Below the pieces are notes generated by a model that was given only the letters and a program-made list of their open reading frames with translations, was not told the DNA's origin and did not search any database. The position numbers and the translations under genes were made by a program. Of a stretch of 64,000 nt of DNA, positions 2,520 through 63,890 are shown piece by piece (position 1 is the stretch's first letter; each line of letters opens with the position of its first letter). Source of the DNA: Streptomyces sp. YIM 121038 (lineage in GTDB: Bacteria; Actinomycetota; Actinomycetes; Streptomycetales; Streptomycetaceae). Where the stretch lies: NCBI RefSeq assembly GCF_006088715.1, contig NZ_CP030771.1, positions 2,046,001 through 2,110,000 of the forward strand, given 5' to 3'.

Positions 2520-2592
2520 GCGGACGTAGCTCAGTTGGTAGAGCGCAACCTTGCCAAGGTTGAGGTCGCCAGTTCGAACCTGGTCGTCCGCT
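2520..2592 (+). tRNA. tRNA-Gly (GCC)
   Basis: A 73-nt cloverleaf. Acceptor GCGGACG pairs with CGTCCGC, the D-stem is GCTC/GAGC, the anticodon loop TTGCCAA sits on CAACC/GGTTG, and the T-stem is GCCAG/CTGGT around TTCGAAC. The anticodon GCC reads the favoured glycine codon GGC. CCA is not encoded. Confidence 0.97.
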
Positions 2593-2632
2593 CGCAGGAA
2601 CGCGGGGGATCTTCCCGAAACCCCGTACTCCT

Positions 2633-2703
2633 GGTGGAGTGGCCGAGAGGCGAGGCAACGGCCTGCAAAGCCGTCTACACGGGTTCAAATCCCGTCTCCA
2701 CCT
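2633..2703 (+). tRNA. tRNA-Cys (GCA)
   Basis: A 71-nt cloverleaf. Acceptor GGTGGAG pairs with CTCCACC, the anticodon loop CTGCAAA has anticodon GCA on ACGGC/GCCGT, and the T-loop is TTCAAAT. The discriminator is T, as expected for cysteine tRNA. CCA is not encoded. Confidence 0.97.
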
Positions 2704-2707
2704 CCAA

Positions 2708-2779
2708 GGACGATTAGCTCAGCGGGAGAGCGCTTCCCTGACACGGAAGAGGTCACTGGTTCAATCCCAGTATCGTCCA
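2708..2779 (+). tRNA. tRNA-Val (GAC), copy 1
   Basis: A 72-nt cloverleaf with anticodon GAC in loop CTGACAC. Its acceptor stem is GGACGAT/ATCGTCC. It begins only 4 nt after tRNA-Cys, so the two come from one transcript. The body is identical to copies 2 and 3, but the acceptor stem differs. Confidence 0.96.
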
Positions 2780-2831
2780 CTGGAATCTCTGATCATGAGG
2801 CCCCCGGGTCTTCGATCACCGAGGTTTCCCC

Positions 2832-2903
2832 GCGCGATTAGCTCAGCGGGAGAGCGCTTCCCTGACACGGAAGAGGTCACTGGTTCAATCCCAGTATCGC
2901 GCA
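2832..2903 (+). tRNA. tRNA-Val (GAC), copy 2
   Basis: A 72-nt cloverleaf with anticodon GAC. The acceptor stem is GCGCGAT/ATCGCGC, and the remainder is identical to the first valine tRNA. It is separated from copy 1 by a 52-bp spacer. Confidence 0.96.
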
Positions 2904-2946
2904 CGCAGCACCTACCACCTGCGGGTATACACTCGCTGATGGTCCC

Positions 2947-3018
2947 GCGCGATTAGCTCAGCGGGAGAGCGCTTCCCTGACACGGAAGAGGTCACTGGTT
3001 CAATCCCAGTATCGCGCA
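2947..3018 (+). tRNA. tRNA-Val (GAC), copy 3
   Basis: A 72-nt cloverleaf identical in sequence to copy 2 (acceptor GCGCGAT/ATCGCGC, anticodon GAC), 43 bp downstream of it. It is the last tRNA of the array. Confidence 0.96.
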
Positions 3019-16573: not shown

Positions 16574-17401
16574 TCAGCCCGTCGTGACGGGCAGCACCGA
16601 CCCCTTGTACTTGTCCTCGATGAACTTCTTCACCTCGGGCGACTTCAGGAGCTCGGCGAGCTTCCTGACCTTCGGGTCGTCCTCGTGGCCCTTCTTCACC
16701 GCGAGGACGTTGTTGTACGGGTTGTCCTTCACCGACTCCAGGAGGATGGCGTCCTTCTTGGGGCTCAGGCCCGCCTCGAGCGCGAAGTTGTTGTTGATGA
16801 CGGCCGCGTCGACGTCCTTCAGGGAGCGCGGCAGCTGCGCGGGCTCCAACGGCTTGATCGTGAGCTTCTTCGGGTTGGCCGCGATGTCCTCGGGGGTGGC
16901 GTTCGCGCCCGCGTCCTTCTTGAGCTCGATCACGCCCTTGGAGGCGAGCAGCTGGAGCGCCCGGCCTTCGTTGGTGGTGTCGTTCGGGACGGCGACGACG
17001 GCTCCGGAGCGGAGCCGGGTGACGTCGTCGAGGTCCTTGCCGCCGTCGGCGTACACGCCCATCGGCGGCAGGTAGACCTCGGTCACCGGCACCAGGTCCG
17101 CCTTCTTGGAGGCGTTGAAGTCCTTCAAGTAGGGGGTGTGCTGGTAGAGGTTGGCGTCGAGGGAGCCCTCCTGGAGGGCGGTGTTCGGCGCGACGTAGTC
17201 GGTGAACTCGCGGATCTGGAGGTCGAGGCCCGCCTTCTCCGCCAGGTTCTGCTGGATGTACTCCAGGACCTCACCGGCCGGGGTCGGGGTGGCCCCGACG
17301 ACGAGCTTGTCGCCGTCGGAGCCGGAACCCGAGCCGCAGGCGGTCAGGCCGAGCGCCAGGGCCAGGGCCCCGGCCGCCACGGCTGTGCCCGGCGTCCGCA
17401 T
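16574..17401 (-). CDS. metQ: Methionine ABC importer substrate-binding lipoprotein, second copy
   Basis: A 275-aa NLPA-family lipoprotein. The signal peptide is MRTPGTAVAAGALALALGLTAC, with lipobox LTAC and the lipidated cysteine at residue 22. The mature protein shows LVVGATPTPAGEVLEYI, FTDYVAPNTALQEGSLDANLYQH and AVPNDTTNEGRALQLL, as expected for methionine (or methionine peptide/sulfoxide) binding. It begins one base after the stop of the first metQ (TGA C ATG), so translation is coupled. It is clearly paralogous to its neighbour, with conserved ligand-loop segments but different surface charge. The pair may broaden ligand range. Confidence 0.9.
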   Translation of the reverse strand: MRTPGTAVAAGALALALGLTACGSGSGSDGDKLVVGATPTPAGEVLEYIQQNLAEKAGLDLQIREFTDYVAPNTALQEGSLDANLYQHTPYLKDFNASKKADLVPVTEVYLPPMGVYADGGKDLDDVTRLRSGAVVAVPNDTTNEGRALQLLASKGVIELKKDAGANATPEDIAANPKKLTIKPLEPAQLPRSLKDVDAAVINNNFALEAGLSPKKDAILLESVKDNPYNNVLAVKKGHEDDPKVRKLAELLKSPEVKKFIEDKYKGSVLPVTTG

Positions 17402-17402
17402 G

Positions 17403-18236
17403 TCAGAACGCCGCGACGACGGCGCCGTCGTACTTCTTCTCGATGAACGCCTTGACCTCGGGCGAGGTGAGGAGCTTCGCGAGCTTCTTCACGCGCGGGT
17501 CGTCCTCGTTGCCCTTCTTCACGGCGAGGAAGTTGCCGTAGGGGTTGCCCTTGGCCTTCTCGGCGACGAGGGCGTCCTTGGCGGGGCTGAGGTCGGCCTC
17601 CAGGGCGTAGTTGCCGTTGATCACCGCGGCGTCGACGTCCTTGATGGTGCGCGGCAGGGCCGCGGCCTCCAGCTCCTTGAACTTCAGGTCCAGCGGGTTG
17701 GACGCGATGTCCTTGGGGGTGGCCTCGAAGCCGACGCCGTCCTTGAGCTTGATGACGCCGTTGTCCGCGAGGAGCTTCAGGGCGCGCGCCTCGTTGGTGG
17801 TGTCGTTCGGGACGGCGACCGTCGCGCCCTTCTTCAGGTCGTCGATCTTCTTGATCTTCTTCGAGTAGACGCCCAGCGGCTCCAGGTGCACCGTGCCGTT
17901 CGGGACCGGGGCGATGTCCGTCCCGTTCTTCTTGTTGAAGTCGTCCAGGTACGGCTTGTGCTGGAAGTAGTTCGCGAAGACCTCACCCTGCTGCGTCGCC
18001 GTGTTCGGCGTGACGTAGTCGGTGAACTCCTTGACCTCCAGGTCGAGGCCCGCCTTCTTCGCCAGGTTCTTCTTGACGAAGTCGAGGATCTGGCCCTGCG
18101 GGGTCGGGGTCGCGGCGACGACGAGCGCGCCGTCCTTGTCGCCCGCGGAGTCCTTGTCCGAGCCGCAGGCGGTGAGGCCCAGGGTGAGGGCTCCGGCGGT
18201 CAGGACAGCAGCGGTGATCTTGGTGGTGTTACGCAC
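17403..18236 (-). CDS. metQ: Methionine ABC importer substrate-binding lipoprotein, first copy
   Basis: A 277-aa NLPA-family lipoprotein with signal peptide VRNTTKITAAVLTAGALTLG and lipobox LTAC. The mature part has LVVAATPTPQGQILDFV, FTDYVTPNTATQQGEVFANYFQH and VAVPNDTTNEARALKLL. I use the GTG at 18236, which follows GGAGAAAGG; an ATG 30 nt upstream is in frame but would put charged residues before the signal peptide. It binds D/L-methionine outside the membrane and delivers it to MetI. It is 96 bp from metI, in the order metN-metI-metQ-metQ. Confidence 0.92.
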   Translation of the reverse strand: MRNTTKITAAVLTAGALTLGLTACGSDKDSAGDKDGALVVAATPTPQGQILDFVKKNLAKKAGLDLEVKEFTDYVTPNTATQQGEVFANYFQHKPYLDDFNKKNGTDIAPVPNGTVHLEPLGVYSKKIKKIDDLKKGATVAVPNDTTNEARALKLLADNGVIKLKDGVGFEATPKDIASNPLDLKFKELEAAALPRTIKDVDAAVINGNYALEADLSPAKDALVAEKAKGNPYGNFLAVKKGNEDDPRVKKLAKLLTSPEVKAFIEKKYDGAVVAAF

Positions 18237-18332
18237 GAAAAGTGCCTTTCTCCATGGGTGGTACACGCCCGCGGCGGTGGTGCGGGGGTGGTGCTGGGCG
18301 CCCGCTGGGCGAACTCAGCGAACTCTGGGGAC

Positions 18333-19082
18333 TCAGGAAGCCTTGGCGGGCTCCGCCTCGGCCGTGACGGTCTTCGGGGCCTTGGCGCGGAGCAGCTTCA
18401 GACGCGGTGCGGCGCCCGAGTGGCTGCCGCGCCGGTGGAGCCTGCGGGCGGCGTAGTCGCCGACGAACTGGATGATCGAGATGACCACGGCGAGGATGCC
18501 GACGGTGATCCACATCAGCTCGGTCTCGAAGCGCTGGTAGCCGTAGCGGACCGCGAGGTCGCCGAGGCCGCCGGCGCCGACGGTGCCGGTGATCGCCGAG
18601 TAGCCGATGAGGGCGACGACGGTCGTGGTGGCGCTGGAGATGAGCGACGGCAGCGACTCGGGCACGAGGACCTTGCGGACCACGGTCCAGGTGTTGCCGC
18701 CCATCGACTGCACGGCCTCGACCAGGCCGTGGTCGACCTCGCGCACGGCCGTCTCGACCAGGCGGGCGAAGAACGGGATGGCGCTGATCGCGAGCGGCAC
18801 GATCGCGGCCTCACGGCCGATGGTGGTGCCGACGATGGAGCGCGTGAAGCCCATCAGGGCGACCATGAGGATGATGAACGGCATCGAGCGGCCGATGTTC
18901 ACGACCTGCCCGATCACCTTGTTCACGACGACGTTCTGCAACAGGCCGCCGCGGTCGGTGAGCACCAGGAGCAGGCCGAGCGGCAGACCGGCGGCGACGG
19001 CGATGAGCGCCGACCAGCCGACCATGTAGAGGGTGTCCCAACAGGCCTGCTCCAGCAGGGGCTGCATTTCGTCCCAGGTCAC
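18333..19082 (-). CDS. metI: Methionine ABC importer permease
   Basis: A 249-aa MetI-type permease with five or so hydrophobic helices (for example TLYMVGWSALIAVAAGLPLG, IGRSMPFIILMVALMGF, LMWITVGILAVVISIIQFVG). The EAA loop that contacts the ATPase is VEAVQSMGGNTWTVVRKVLVPESLP, with the conserved E-A-x3-G. The C-terminal tail after residue 215 is basic and probably cytoplasmic. The ATG at 19082 overlaps the metN stop in ATGA, so the two are translationally coupled. Confidence 0.93.
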   Translation of the reverse strand: MTWDEMQPLLEQACWDTLYMVGWSALIAVAAGLPLGLLLVLTDRGGLLQNVVVNKVIGQVVNIGRSMPFIILMVALMGFTRSIVGTTIGREAAIVPLAISAIPFFARLVETAVREVDHGLVEAVQSMGGNTWTVVRKVLVPESLPSLISSATTTVVALIGYSAITGTVGAGGLGDLAVRYGYQRFETELMWITVGILAVVISIIQFVGDYAARRLHRRGSHSGAAPRLKLLRAKAPKTVTAEAEPAKAS

Positions 19083-20131
19083 TTGGCACCTTCCTTCACC
19101 AGCACGGAGTCCTGCGGTGCGGGCGTGTCGTGCCCGGCGACGTCGACCTGGAGGCCCTGCTCGCGCAGGAAGCCGATGGGCACGACGTTCTCCTCGAAGC
19201 GGCCGGGCAGCTCGATGCGCATGCGGCCGACCTGCTTGCCCCCGACGGTGTCCATGGCGGCGCCGAGGATCGAGATGTCGATGTTGTACGTGCGCGACAG
19301 CTGGGAGATGACCGGCTGGGTCGCGGCCTCGCCGTGGAAGGTGACGTCGACGACGGTGCGCTGGTCGCCGGTCGCGGCACCGCTGAGCGGGAACAGCGCG
19401 GCGGCGAGCTGCGAGCCGGGCGTGGCCAGGAGCTCGCTGACGGTGCCGGACTCCACGATCTGCCCCCGCTCCATCAGGGCGGCGGAGTCGCAGACGGTCT
19501 TGACGACGTCCATCTCGTGCGTGATGAGCAGGACGGTCAGGCCGAGCTGCCGGTTGAGGTCGCGAAGGAGCTGGAGGATGGAGCGGGTGGTCTCCGGGTC
19601 GAGGGCGCTGGTGGCCTCGTCGGAGAGCAGCACCTTCGGGTCGCCGGCGAGGGCGCGGGCGATGCCGACGCGCTGCTTCTGGCCGCCGGAGAGCTGGGCC
19701 GGGTAGGACTTGGCCTTGTCGGCGAGGCCGACGAGGTCGAGCAGGTCGAGCGCCTTGCGGGTGCGCTCCTTGCCGGACAGGCCGAGGATTTCGAGCGGCA
19801 GCTCGACGTTGTCCTGCACGGTGCGCGAGGACAGCAGGTTGAAGTGCTGGAAGACCATGCCGATGCGGCTGCGGGCGGCCCGCAGCTCCCGGCCCGCGCG
19901 CGGGCCGCGTCCGGCGAGGGCGGTGAGGTCCTGACCCGCCACCGTCACGGTGCCGGAGCTGGGGCGCTCCAGGAGGTTCACGCAGCGGATGAGCGAGGAC
20001 TTGCCGGCGCCGGACTGGCCGATGACGCCGTACACCTCGCCTTCGCGCACGTGGAGGTCGACTCCGTCGAGGGCGGTTACTTCACGACCGCGTGAGCGGT
20101 AGACCTTGGTGAGGCCGGAAGTGGTGATCAC
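19079..20131 (-). CDS. metN: Methionine ABC importer ATP-binding protein
   Basis: A 350-aa ABC ATPase. Walker A is GQSGAGKSS, the Q-loop is FQHFNLLSSRTV, the signature is LSGGQKQR, Walker B is VLLSDEATSALD, and the H-loop is LLITHEM. The last 85 residues form a NIL domain (VVDVTFHGEAATQPVISQL), which binds methionine and inhibits import when the cell is replete. I choose the GTG at 20131, where the family sequence ITTSGLTKVYRSRG begins; an ATG at 20164 would add 11 residues and neither has a clear ribosome site. About 218 nt upstream ends a short Cys/Met-rich ORF on the same strand, a likely control leader. Confidence 0.92.
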   Translation of the reverse strand: MITTSGLTKVYRSRGREVTALDGVDLHVREGEVYGVIGQSGAGKSSLIRCVNLLERPSSGTVTVAGQDLTALAGRGPRAGRELRAARSRIGMVFQHFNLLSSRTVQDNVELPLEILGLSGKERTRKALDLLDLVGLADKAKSYPAQLSGGQKQRVGIARALAGDPKVLLSDEATSALDPETTRSILQLLRDLNRQLGLTVLLITHEMDVVKTVCDSAALMERGQIVESGTVSELLATPGSQLAAALFPLSGAATGDQRTVVDVTFHGEAATQPVISQLSRTYNIDISILGAAMDTVGGKQVGRMRIELPGRFEENVVPIGFLREQGLQVDVAGHDTPAPQDSVLVKEGAK

Positions 20132-20348
20132 TGGGTTTCCGTCACTGTCGAGTGCGCGGCGCATGGTGTCGCCGGGGCACGGGGCATTCGTTCGGAACGC
20201 GGCACGGTTCTCGCGGTGGCGGTGGAACCGGAGGACGTGTGCGCGGGGGCGGGCTCTCGCTTCCGTTACGTCGCCTGCGGGCGGAACGTGGGGACGCGGG
20301 GCACGGCGGCTTCGCTTCGGGGCGCGAGGCTCGGTGGTACGGGGGCCC

Positions 20349-20435
20349 TCAGAAGGCGCACATTCGACACATACAACGAGCACCGGGCGTCGTCATCGCC
20401 TCGGTCGCAAGGGTGCGGCTGCTCGTCGTGGTCAT
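20349..20435 (-). CDS. Candidate Cys/Met-rich regulatory leader peptide upstream of metN
   Basis: A 28-codon ORF that starts MTTTSSRTLATEAMTTPG and ends ARCMCRMCAF, so three Cys and two Met codons lie in the last eight positions before the stop. An AT-rich TGTTTTACTGT element sits 4-14 nt before the ATG with no ribosome site, so the mRNA may be leaderless. It is followed by ~218 nt of untranslated leader before metN. In mycobacteria, leaderless poly-Cys ORFs are known to control sulfur operons by cysteine-dependent ribosome stalling; that this ORF works the same way for methionine import is my inference. It is too short for codon statistics to help. It could also be chance. Confidence 0.55.
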   Translation of the reverse strand: MTTTSSRTLATEAMTTPGARCMCRMCAF

Positions 20436-20527
20436 GCGGACAGTAAAACACGCGGGCGGCGTCGCACCGCCACCGTTGTCCGAATAGCGGACGTCCGATG
20501 CCCGCCTGTCGGACGCACGATGTCGCC

Positions 20528-21208
20528 TCACCGGCCCCTTCGGGCGCGCGGGACGATCTCGACCCCACCCGCCGTGGCCTGCGCCGACACCTCCGAGAGG
20601 TCCTTGACGAGGACGTCGGCGGACAGCTCGGCCGCGCGGTGCGTTGTGGTCAACGCCACGGTGGTCATGCCCGCGGCGCGGCCCGCCGTGAGACCCGCGG
20701 GGGCGTCCTCGAAGACCACGCAGCGCGCCGGGTCGACGCCGAGGGTCCGCGCGGCGAGCAGGAAGGGCTCCGGGTCGGGCTTGCCGCGGCTGATGTCGTC
20801 GGCCGCGATCAGCGTCTTGGGGCGGATGCCCACCTCGTCGAGGCGGGCCTCGGCCAGGCGGCGGGTGGCGGAGGTGACCACGGCCCAGCGCTCGGGCGGC
20901 AGCGCGGCGAGCAGGTCGAGGGTGCCGGGCAGCGCGACGACACCGCCCGCGACGTCCGAGACCTCCAGCTCCTCGATCCGCGCGACCGCCGCCGCGACCC
21001 GCTCGGCGGGCAGCAGGTCGGCCACGATCTCGGCGGCGGGGCGCCCGTGCAGCTCGACCCGCGCGAAGTCCTCCGCGGTGATGCCGCACTCCCCCGCCCA
21101 GCGCGTCCAGCAGCGCGTGACCGACTCCATCGAGGAGATGAGGGTGCCGTCGTTGTCGAACAGGAGCGCTTCGGCCCGCAGGGGCTGGGGTTCGGCCTGG
21201 GTGTTCAT
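20528..21208 (-). CDS. HAD-family sugar-phosphatase-like hydrolase
   Basis: A 226-aa protein. Motif I is LLFDNDGTLISSM (nucleophile Asp, D-x-D as DND), motif II is VVTSATRRLAEARL, motif III lysine is in ADDISRGKPDPEPFLLAA, and motif IV is CVVFEDAPAGLTAGRAAGM. This is the pattern of class I-cap HAD phosphatases such as the DogI/YfbT sugar phosphatases and beta-phosphoglucomutase relatives. The second motif I aspartate is present, so phosphatase activity is expected; the substrate is unknown. The start is set at the ATG at 21208, since the frame upstream is long but unlike the family. It is followed (93 nt) by the leader ORF of the met operon. Confidence 0.85.
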   Translation of the reverse strand: MNTQAEPQPLRAEALLFDNDGTLISSMESVTRCWTRWAGECGITAEDFARVELHGRPAAEIVADLLPAERVAAAVARIEELEVSDVAGGVVALPGTLDLLAALPPERWAVVTSATRRLAEARLDEVGIRPKTLIAADDISRGKPDPEPFLLAARTLGVDPARCVVFEDAPAGLTAGRAAGMTTVALTTTHRAAELSADVLVKDLSEVSAQATAGGVEIVPRARRGR

Positions 21209-63678: not shown

Positions 63679-63708
63679 AAAAAATGCCCCGGCTGATCAC
63701 AGCGGGGC
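63679..63708 (-). promoter_or_regulatory. Transcription attenuator in the infC leader
   Basis: Stem GCCCCGCTG / CAGC-CGGGGC with loop TGAT (one bulged C), 63686-63708, followed on the minus strand by ATTTTTTG (T6 at 63679-63684). It is 80 nt before the infC start, inside the leader, so it can stop transcription before the operon. Confidence 0.75.
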
Positions 63709-63890
63709 TCCACACAACTACCGGAGCACCTCCGTGGTGATCACGGGGCGCATCGGGCGGGCCTGCACGCTCGGTGCGGTCCGCCTGACCGGTGACCCGC
63801 CGCTCGGGGAGCGGCCAGGTGGGAGTTCGGAGCCTCCACTTGTGGGCCGGATCCCTCGTCGTACGTGGGCGTCCGGCCGGTCGTCACCCA

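Follow-up and report, generated by a model that had tools for sequence, protein, structure and literature searches.

Two kinds of published leader are among the closest to the one described here. In Streptomyces lividans TK24 the leader gene metL (SLIV_29928) precedes metNIQ and encodes the peptide MSTTSDRTPATEATTTPGARCMCRRMCAF. It was found by RNA-seq to be leaderless and was labelled methionine-dependent, with "several methionines and threonines"; how transcription terminates was left unclear, and no typical terminator was recognized (PMC8079986). In mycobacteria, leaderless ORFs rich in cysteine codons, known as polycysteine ORFs, have been reported (Canestrari et al. 2020, cited through PMC13236596, PMC9094748 and PMC4633059), and the case in M. 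smegmatis is described as translation attenuation (PMC13236596). Cysteine leaders without terminators were also predicted in mycobacteria and some other organisms, and nothing conserved was reported before methionine operons in the excerpts covered of that paper (PMC1262725). Expression data bear on the same genes. In S. coelicolor, metN, metI and metQ rose 5.2, 3.5 and 2.3 fold under oxidative stress, together with cysteine biosynthesis genes, and this induction was lost in an hbpS-senS-senR mutant (PMC4991794). In plasmid-less S. clavuligerus the metNIQ orthologues were the most upregulated genes of a group (PMC5702194). Here and below, statements cited from papers refer to the excerpts that the literature search covered.

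The locus that we describe lies within a 64,000-nucleotide stretch of DNA, called the window. It carries a leader whose peptide is, by eye, closely similar to that of S. lividans metL, and both lie directly 5' of metNIQ. A preliminary description of the window had called such an element undescribed. For the element itself this does not hold, since metL is in print (PMC8079986), and for the combined cysteine and methionine reading it does hold within the literature searched. In the excerpts of PMC8079986, the Cys codons, the CGA-AUG core, conservation across species and covariation are not mentioned for metL. A literature search whose scope lay outside most subscription journals returned no other paper on the leader among the matches listed, and the leader's Cys codons and CGA-AUG core are undescribed in the texts covered. 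We consider it probable (roughly 0.6) that this leaderless, translated leader is a ribosome-mediated attenuator by which metNIQ answers to the supply of charged Cys- and Met-tRNA. Its conservation makes it probable that the leader allows the importer to be tuned to how much of these sulfur amino acids the cell has.

The leader ORF and the metNIQ operon

The leader, its promoter element and the genes that follow are these:

20349..20435, minus strand: leader ORF of 28 codons, ATG to TGA, orthologue of S. lividans metL
20442..20450, minus strand: extended -10 element, TG-T-TTTACT, 6 nt 5' of the leader ATG
19079..20131, minus strand: metN, ABC ATPase with NIL domain (PF00005, PF09383)
18333..19082, minus strand: metI, permease (PF00528, BPD_transp_1)
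17403..18239, minus strand: metQ-like NlpA lipoprotein 1, start assumed (PF03180)
16574..17401, minus strand: metQ-like NlpA lipoprotein 2 (PF03180)

Translation of 20435-20349 on the minus strand gives the peptide MTTTSSRTLATEAMTTPGARCMCRMCAF, with the C-terminal end CMCRMCAF, in agreement with the three Cys and two Met that had been reported among the last eight codons. Cys and Met together make up 1.9% of the residues (40 of 2,075) in eight window genes, and at this background the chance of finding at least five of them in 12 codons is P ~2e-6. Judged on orthologous sequences, conservation is stronger evidence for the leader than this calculation. No NCBIfam family matches the leader peptide. 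The AT-rich element noted earlier is indeed present 4 nt 5' of the leader ATG (TGTTTTACTGT). It can be parsed as an extended -10 (TG-N-TTTACT) with a spacing of 6 nt to the ATG, which fits the expectation for a leaderless start. A TGN-hexamer stands 6-7 nt 5' of the ATG in 70 of 72 loci, the start having been mapped in S. lividans only. The leaderless start that had been proposed agrees with promoter spacing and with the published S. lividans RNA-seq (PMC8079986). The reading frame is open far 5' of the ATG, to 21089, so that the start call rests on the promoter and on conservation and not on the ORF.

Pfam matches give the order metN-metI-metQ-metQ after the leader, all on the minus strand. 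The two MetQ-like NlpA lipoproteins are encoded in tandem (16574-18239, minus strand) within one operon, and might perhaps serve different sulfur amino acids. Elsewhere in the window, Rfam matches mark the Streptomyces sRNA Scr1601 at 63679-63885 (minus strand) and a cluster of five tRNA genes at 2520-3018 (plus strand).

Conservation of the leader and its tail codons

Orthologues of metN were gathered with their upstream DNA, and 53 of the loci L001-L110 were examined for a leader (L001-L050, L089, L099 and L103). A leader of the same kind lies upstream of metN in all 47 of L001-L047, a set made up of Streptomyces, two Kitasatospora and one Actinomadura; in L022 and L042 the CGA-ATG frame is present and the starts were identified separately from the scripted start rule. 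No CGA-ATG ORF was seen at L048, L089, L099 or L103, and L049 and L050, which are not Actinobacteria, have no such leader upstream of metN. The scripted rule, which accepted any Arg codon and required ATG as the start, R-M at the end and one Cys, found a leader in 73 of 75 loci, and all 72 loci with metN more than 70% identical conform to it. The two that fail, L151 and L152 (the same places as L163 and L164), have a distant metN with 63% identity. They carry Cys/Met ORFs on looser inspection and escaped the rule through its insistence on ATG as the start and R-M at the end.

An independent profile search, with 20 leader peptides against 296 genomes of the class (a sample from which the second family described below is absent), found a single match at E <= 1e-5 in each of the 28 Streptomyces genomes, always 165-293 nt 5' of metN. 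The best match outside Streptomyces had an E of 0.007, so the profile is blind to distant leaders. A genus-wide pattern search at 3 mismatches was rejected as a tally, since its backwards control matches equally often; among the matches listed, the rows with zero mismatches all have CGA, though the pattern permitted CGN.

Alignment A1 comprises 37 of the 47 loci L001-L047, and in all 37 rows the gap runs within the aligned ORF are 3, 6 or 12 nt. The distance from the stop to metN is not bound to a frame (23, 24 and 25 of 72 in the three classes modulo 3), and the stop itself alternates between TGA and TAG among orthologues. Counts on 60, 61, 45 or 56 sequences refer to distinct leaders, less duplicates, odd lengths or missing motifs. 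The leader is real, not the product of chance, and deeply conserved.

Two features define the tail:

20358..20375, minus strand: putative regulatory codons 21-26, TGT ATG TGT CGA ATG TGC (C M C R M C)
20361..20366, minus strand: invariant CGA-ATG codon pair, with three sense codons between it and the stop

Conservation extends to the tail's Cys and Met codons, a point on which the preliminary description had made its reading depend: at least two Cys fall within the last 13 codons in 71 of 72 leaders and a Met in 72 of 72, a composition partly built in, as the R-M pair and one Cys belonged to the ORF-finding rule. CGA precedes the last Met in 73 of 73 leaders found by the scripted rule, and exactly three sense codons separate that Met from the stop in 72 of 72 closer loci, while CGA accounts for 2 of 129 Arg codons in the eight window genes. 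TGT makes up 145 of the 203 Cys codons in the tails of 72 leaders, as against 1 of 13 in those genes. Cys in the tail alternates with Met and Arg, and no uninterrupted stretch of Cys codons precedes the stop. Among 45 distinct leaders, 13 have Arg at codon 26 and 8 have a residue other than Met at codon 22; the three residues after the core Met are variable (C/R, A/D, F/C/R/I). The Cys and Met codons vary more than codons 10-13 and 17-20, which are near-frozen even at silent sites, and this counts against attenuation at the tail codons.

Leaders outside Streptomyces

In a second family of the same order, a Cys/Met-rich leader lies before metN in 7 of 7 loci read. An example is MIDTQSSRTSAATKAPRMMCGCMPSCRMCSC, with tails such as MMCGCMPSCRMCSC, placed 7 nt after TATAGT. 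These leaders also have CGA-ATG three codons before the stop, and in 3 of the 4 that were scored there are five Cys in the last 12 codons. By eye, the surrounding RNA shows no relation to the Streptomyces leader RNA, and for this reason the second family offers the strongest argument that the tail is selected as codons. In most of its predicted folds, stems close near the CGA on one side and take in the stop on the other, so that AUG-UGY is left in the middle. As a separate observation, the leader stop in L115-L120 and L124, which belong to this family, lies inside a predicted multi-branched RNA, unlike that of the Streptomyces leader, and there are apparent compensatory changes by eye (GAGTC/GACTC, GAGGC/GCCTC, GAGC/GCTC). 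No close metN was found in the second-family genomes G038, G040, G044, G045, G047, G048 and G051, and no such leader was seen at L121 or L122.

The one Actinomadura locus among L001-L047 likewise has a Cys/Met-rich leader before metN. From other families 28 regions were read (L163-L190, one merely 103 nt long), and by eye a Cys/Met leader is present in nine (L163, L164, L165, L168, L169, L170, L174, L176 and L178), with CGA-ATG in four of these (L163, L169, L174 and L178). The remaining 19 hold no acceptable Cys/Met leader by eye. Beyond the two families and Actinomadura, the distribution of the leader is patchy. The leaders at L164, L165, L168 and L170, from another family, end in CAMGGMPSMR, a Met-rich terminus without CGA-ATG, as if the input had moved toward methionine.

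A specific form of attenuation may be put forward tentatively, namely that the charging of Cys- and Met-tRNA is read together and that the rare CGA before the last AUG is a built-in brake; we regard this as possible rather than probable. The brake, at its fixed distance of three codons from the stop, would set the place where the ribosome waits. If this were true, methionine import would be coupled to cysteine shortage, for example under thiol or oxidative stress. A rival proposal is an attenuator that answers to methionine alone, the reading in print for S. lividans metL, with the Cys codons incidental or present for RNA pairing. The CGA-AUG pair (R24, M25) is the sole invariant part of the tail, the operon encodes a methionine-type importer by Pfam, and the published label is methionine-dependent (PMC8079986), all of which agree with that proposal. 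However, Cys codons are at least as numerous as Met codons (203 in 72 tails, with at least two in 71), and 3 of the 4 scored second-family leaders have five Cys in the last 12 codons. We judge dependence on methionine alone to be unlikely.

Constraint on the leader RNA

Across 45 distinct 28-codon leaders, identity at the third positions of codons 2-20 is 96.3%, compared with 79.1% for metN codons 2-41 in the same 45 loci. This near-freezing of third positions implies that selection holds much of the leader ORF at the RNA level in addition to the peptide. The preliminary description missed this constraint, and by this measure the codons tell only part of the story. The paired and conserved elements are the following:

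20373..20429, minus strand: stem P1 inside the ORF, ACGACGAGC (20429-20421) with GCTCGTTGT (20381-20373)
20382..20405, minus strand: in-ORF hairpin, ACCGaGGCG..CGCC-CGGT, 97.6% of cells paired
20310..20329, minus strand: hairpin H2 after the stop, CTCGC-GCCCCGAA-GCGA(a)G, three pairs with two-sided changes
20152..20180, minus strand: hairpin H3, 5' of the ribosome site of metN, two-sided changes in 5 of 7 pairs
20136..20152, minus strand: CTCGACAGTGACGGAAA, a highly conserved block 5' of the metN start

The fold predicted for the window leader is a multi-branched structure within the ORF. Stem P1, whose 3' arm ends within the first Cys codon, is present in the minimum-energy fold and has 93-94% of cells paired with no two-sided changes; the in-ORF hairpin has a two-sided change at one pair. 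A relaxed H2 motif occurs in 56 of 60 distinct leaders. Over the whole structure 93.9% of cells are paired and two-sided changes occur at 10 of 36 pairs, 8 of which belong to H2 or H3, the hairpins that follow the stop and precede metN, respectively. Shuffled alignments give a mean of 3.7 two-sided pairs, with none of 500 shuffles reaching 10, and slid controls give 2-6; in these comparisons the shuffles are uncorrected and the slid controls corrected for relatedness, and the alignment tested is also the one that yielded the structure. When the arms of the in-ORF stem were swapped between leaders, the mean energy was -21.8 kcal/mol on the diagonal versus -21.2 kcal/mol off it. A leader's own arms were best in the diverged L042, L046, L117, L118, L124, L147, L149 and L150, and not best in L003, L004, L006, L011, L043, L044, L119, L120 and others.

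These data invite the idea that the leader is a structured RNA switch or a protein-binding RNA with an incidental ORF, in which a ligand or protein is sensed instead of codons being decoded. The contrast in third positions, the covariation in H2 and H3 and the multi-branched fold predicted within the window ORF are all what such an element might display. But Rfam gives no match at the leader region 20080-20540, at the gathering score or at E <= 10, and on this ground a SAM or other known riboswitch was rejected. Moreover, the second family retains the Cys/Met tail within RNA that is unrelated by eye, and the frame, start spacing and stop are all conserved. A switch independent of decoding is accordingly improbable.

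From the leader to metNIQ

Returning to attenuation by the ribosome, the leader ORF, the untranslated stretch and the conserved hairpins, taken as sequence features, point to ribosome-mediated control. Under a shortage of Cys-tRNA or Met-tRNA, the ribosome would pause on the Cys and Met codons immediately ahead of the stop, and the place it occupies on the leader would keep metNIQ expressed. With both tRNAs plentiful, the ribosome would terminate and leave, and metNIQ would be held down. Repression might follow either of two routes: the untranslated C-rich leader could be exposed to Rho, or the 3' end of the ORF could refold with the metN initiation region. Both concern the same stretch of RNA:

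20132..20348, minus strand: 217-nt untranslated stretch, C-rich and G-poor (C 47%, G 28%)

The length had been given as 218 nt, and the actual distance to the metN GTG (20131) is 217 nt. C exceeds G in 61 of 61 orthologues. The value for the window leader ranks in the top 0.9% of 190-nt stretches, whereas the best 78 nt within it reach no higher than the top 6% of window stretches. A C-rich, G-poor leader of this composition would suit Rho-dependent termination of the tnaC kind. Among the features of classical attenuators the leader has one, a richness in codons for the putative regulating amino acids. No terminator-like site was found 3' of the ORF, both matches found being upstream of it. 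A classical terminator/antiterminator was rejected, given this lack of a terminator and the presence of H2 in every simulated state. Among the 56 leaders of 60 that have the H2 motif, the mean probability of H2 is 0.78 in free RNA, 0.88 with a ribosome at the stop and 0.91 with one stalled at the AUG; it forms in all four simulated states (P 0.78-0.91), and therefore H2 is not switched by ribosome position in these simulations.

Simulated cover on the end of the ORF raised accessibility of the metN ribosome-binding site (RBS) by more than 0.05 in 27 of 60 leaders and lowered it in 2, and cover on the whole ORF raised it in 29 and lowered it in 1. The gain is modest, with a mean of about +0.04 to +0.05 (control, 4 up and 3 down). 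Stalling the simulated ribosome on the Cys and Met codons changed accessibility less than placing it at the stop, with 22 leaders up and 8 down of 60. For the second family, simulated cover on these codons reduced RBS accessibility in 5 of 7 loci and slightly raised it in 1. In the simulations, then, exposure of the RBS on occupancy of the ORF end would suit translational control, and it failed in the second family. Sequestration of the SD sequence by the start of the ORF (CCGCAC with GTGaCGG) was considered and rejected: the pairing is possible in about 35 of 37 leaders and hardly varies, and covering the first 45 nt left the RBS unexposed (18 leaders up and 15 down of 60). A pairing between TGT-CGA and the TCGACA ahead of metN is retained as no more than a lead, being exact in 44 of 60 with a median rank of 0.70 among leader windows and no compensation by eye.

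A further possibility is an arrest peptide or slow-codon element, in which the nascent chain or the CGA itself stops the ribosome and the input is something other than charged tRNA. The constancy of CGA (73 of 73), its rarity in window genes (2 of 129) and the fixed distance from Met to stop (72 of 72) are compatible with it. Arrest peptides are expected to show less residue variation than is observed in the leader. Here the residues after the core Met vary (C/R, A/D, F/C/R/I) and those before it differ between families, and we consider such an element quite improbable.

A possible operator lies farther upstream:

20478..20492, minus strand: conserved palindrome GTCCGCTATTCGGAC upstream of the leader promoter

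The perfect palindrome GTCCGCTATTCGGAC is retained in 57 of 60 distinct orthologous leaders, and the genome holds seven perfect GTCCGNNATNCGGAC sites. It was rejected as the operator of a sulfur regulon: ORFs were listed at 3 of the six other sites and, with their translations judged by eye, none is clearly sulfur-related. One site (L194) lies among ribosomal-protein-like ORFs and another (L195) upstream of a solute-binding-like ORF; the third is L196. In addition, the exact letters of a SenR-like site predicted before SCO1559 (PMC4991794) occur at 20193-20207 (minus strand), inside the presumed transcribed leader, about 228 nt past the presumed start and not at the promoter. Given the loss of induction in the hbpS-senS-senR mutant, the rise of metNIQ may be a transcription-factor effect. 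Yet promoter control through the palindrome or SenR, with a minor role for the leader, is very improbable despite that dependence, the predicted site and the conserved palindrome, since the SenR-like letters lie downstream of the presumed start and a promoter site alone leaves the constrained ORF unexplained.

Discussion

A ribosome-mediated attenuator usually answers to a single amino acid or to a narrow group of related ones. A mixed Cys/Met leader would be a simple sensor of the overall supply of sulfur amino acids. Sensing of both would also offer a reason for the rise of S. coelicolor metNIQ together with cysteine genes under oxidative stress, and the invariant CGA-AUG pair provides a handle on whether codon identity times the ribosome. 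What is known, in the excerpts covered, is the leader in one species, S. lividans; its double Cys/Met make-up and CGA-AUG core went unremarked there.

Comparison with other systems places the leader more precisely. The LEU element of leuA in Actinobacteria (PMC1262725) likewise carries its codons in a conserved fold and may pair with a downstream ribosome site. It has Leu codons, however, and in the present leader the complementarity of UGUCGA and UCGACA is exact in only 44 of 60, with a moderate rank (0.70). The uORFC-8-2 motif before cysS (PMC8632094) is likewise a structured leader ORF with Cys codons in its first stem, but it ends with an intrinsic terminator, whereas none was found 3' of the metN leader ORF. 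Like the mycobacterial polycysteine ORFs (PMC13236596, PMC9094748, PMC4633059), the Streptomyces leader is Cys-rich, placed before sulfur genes and probably leaderless. Whereas those ORFs are polycysteine and precede cysteine genes, the Streptomyces leader mixes Cys with Met and precedes a methionine importer.
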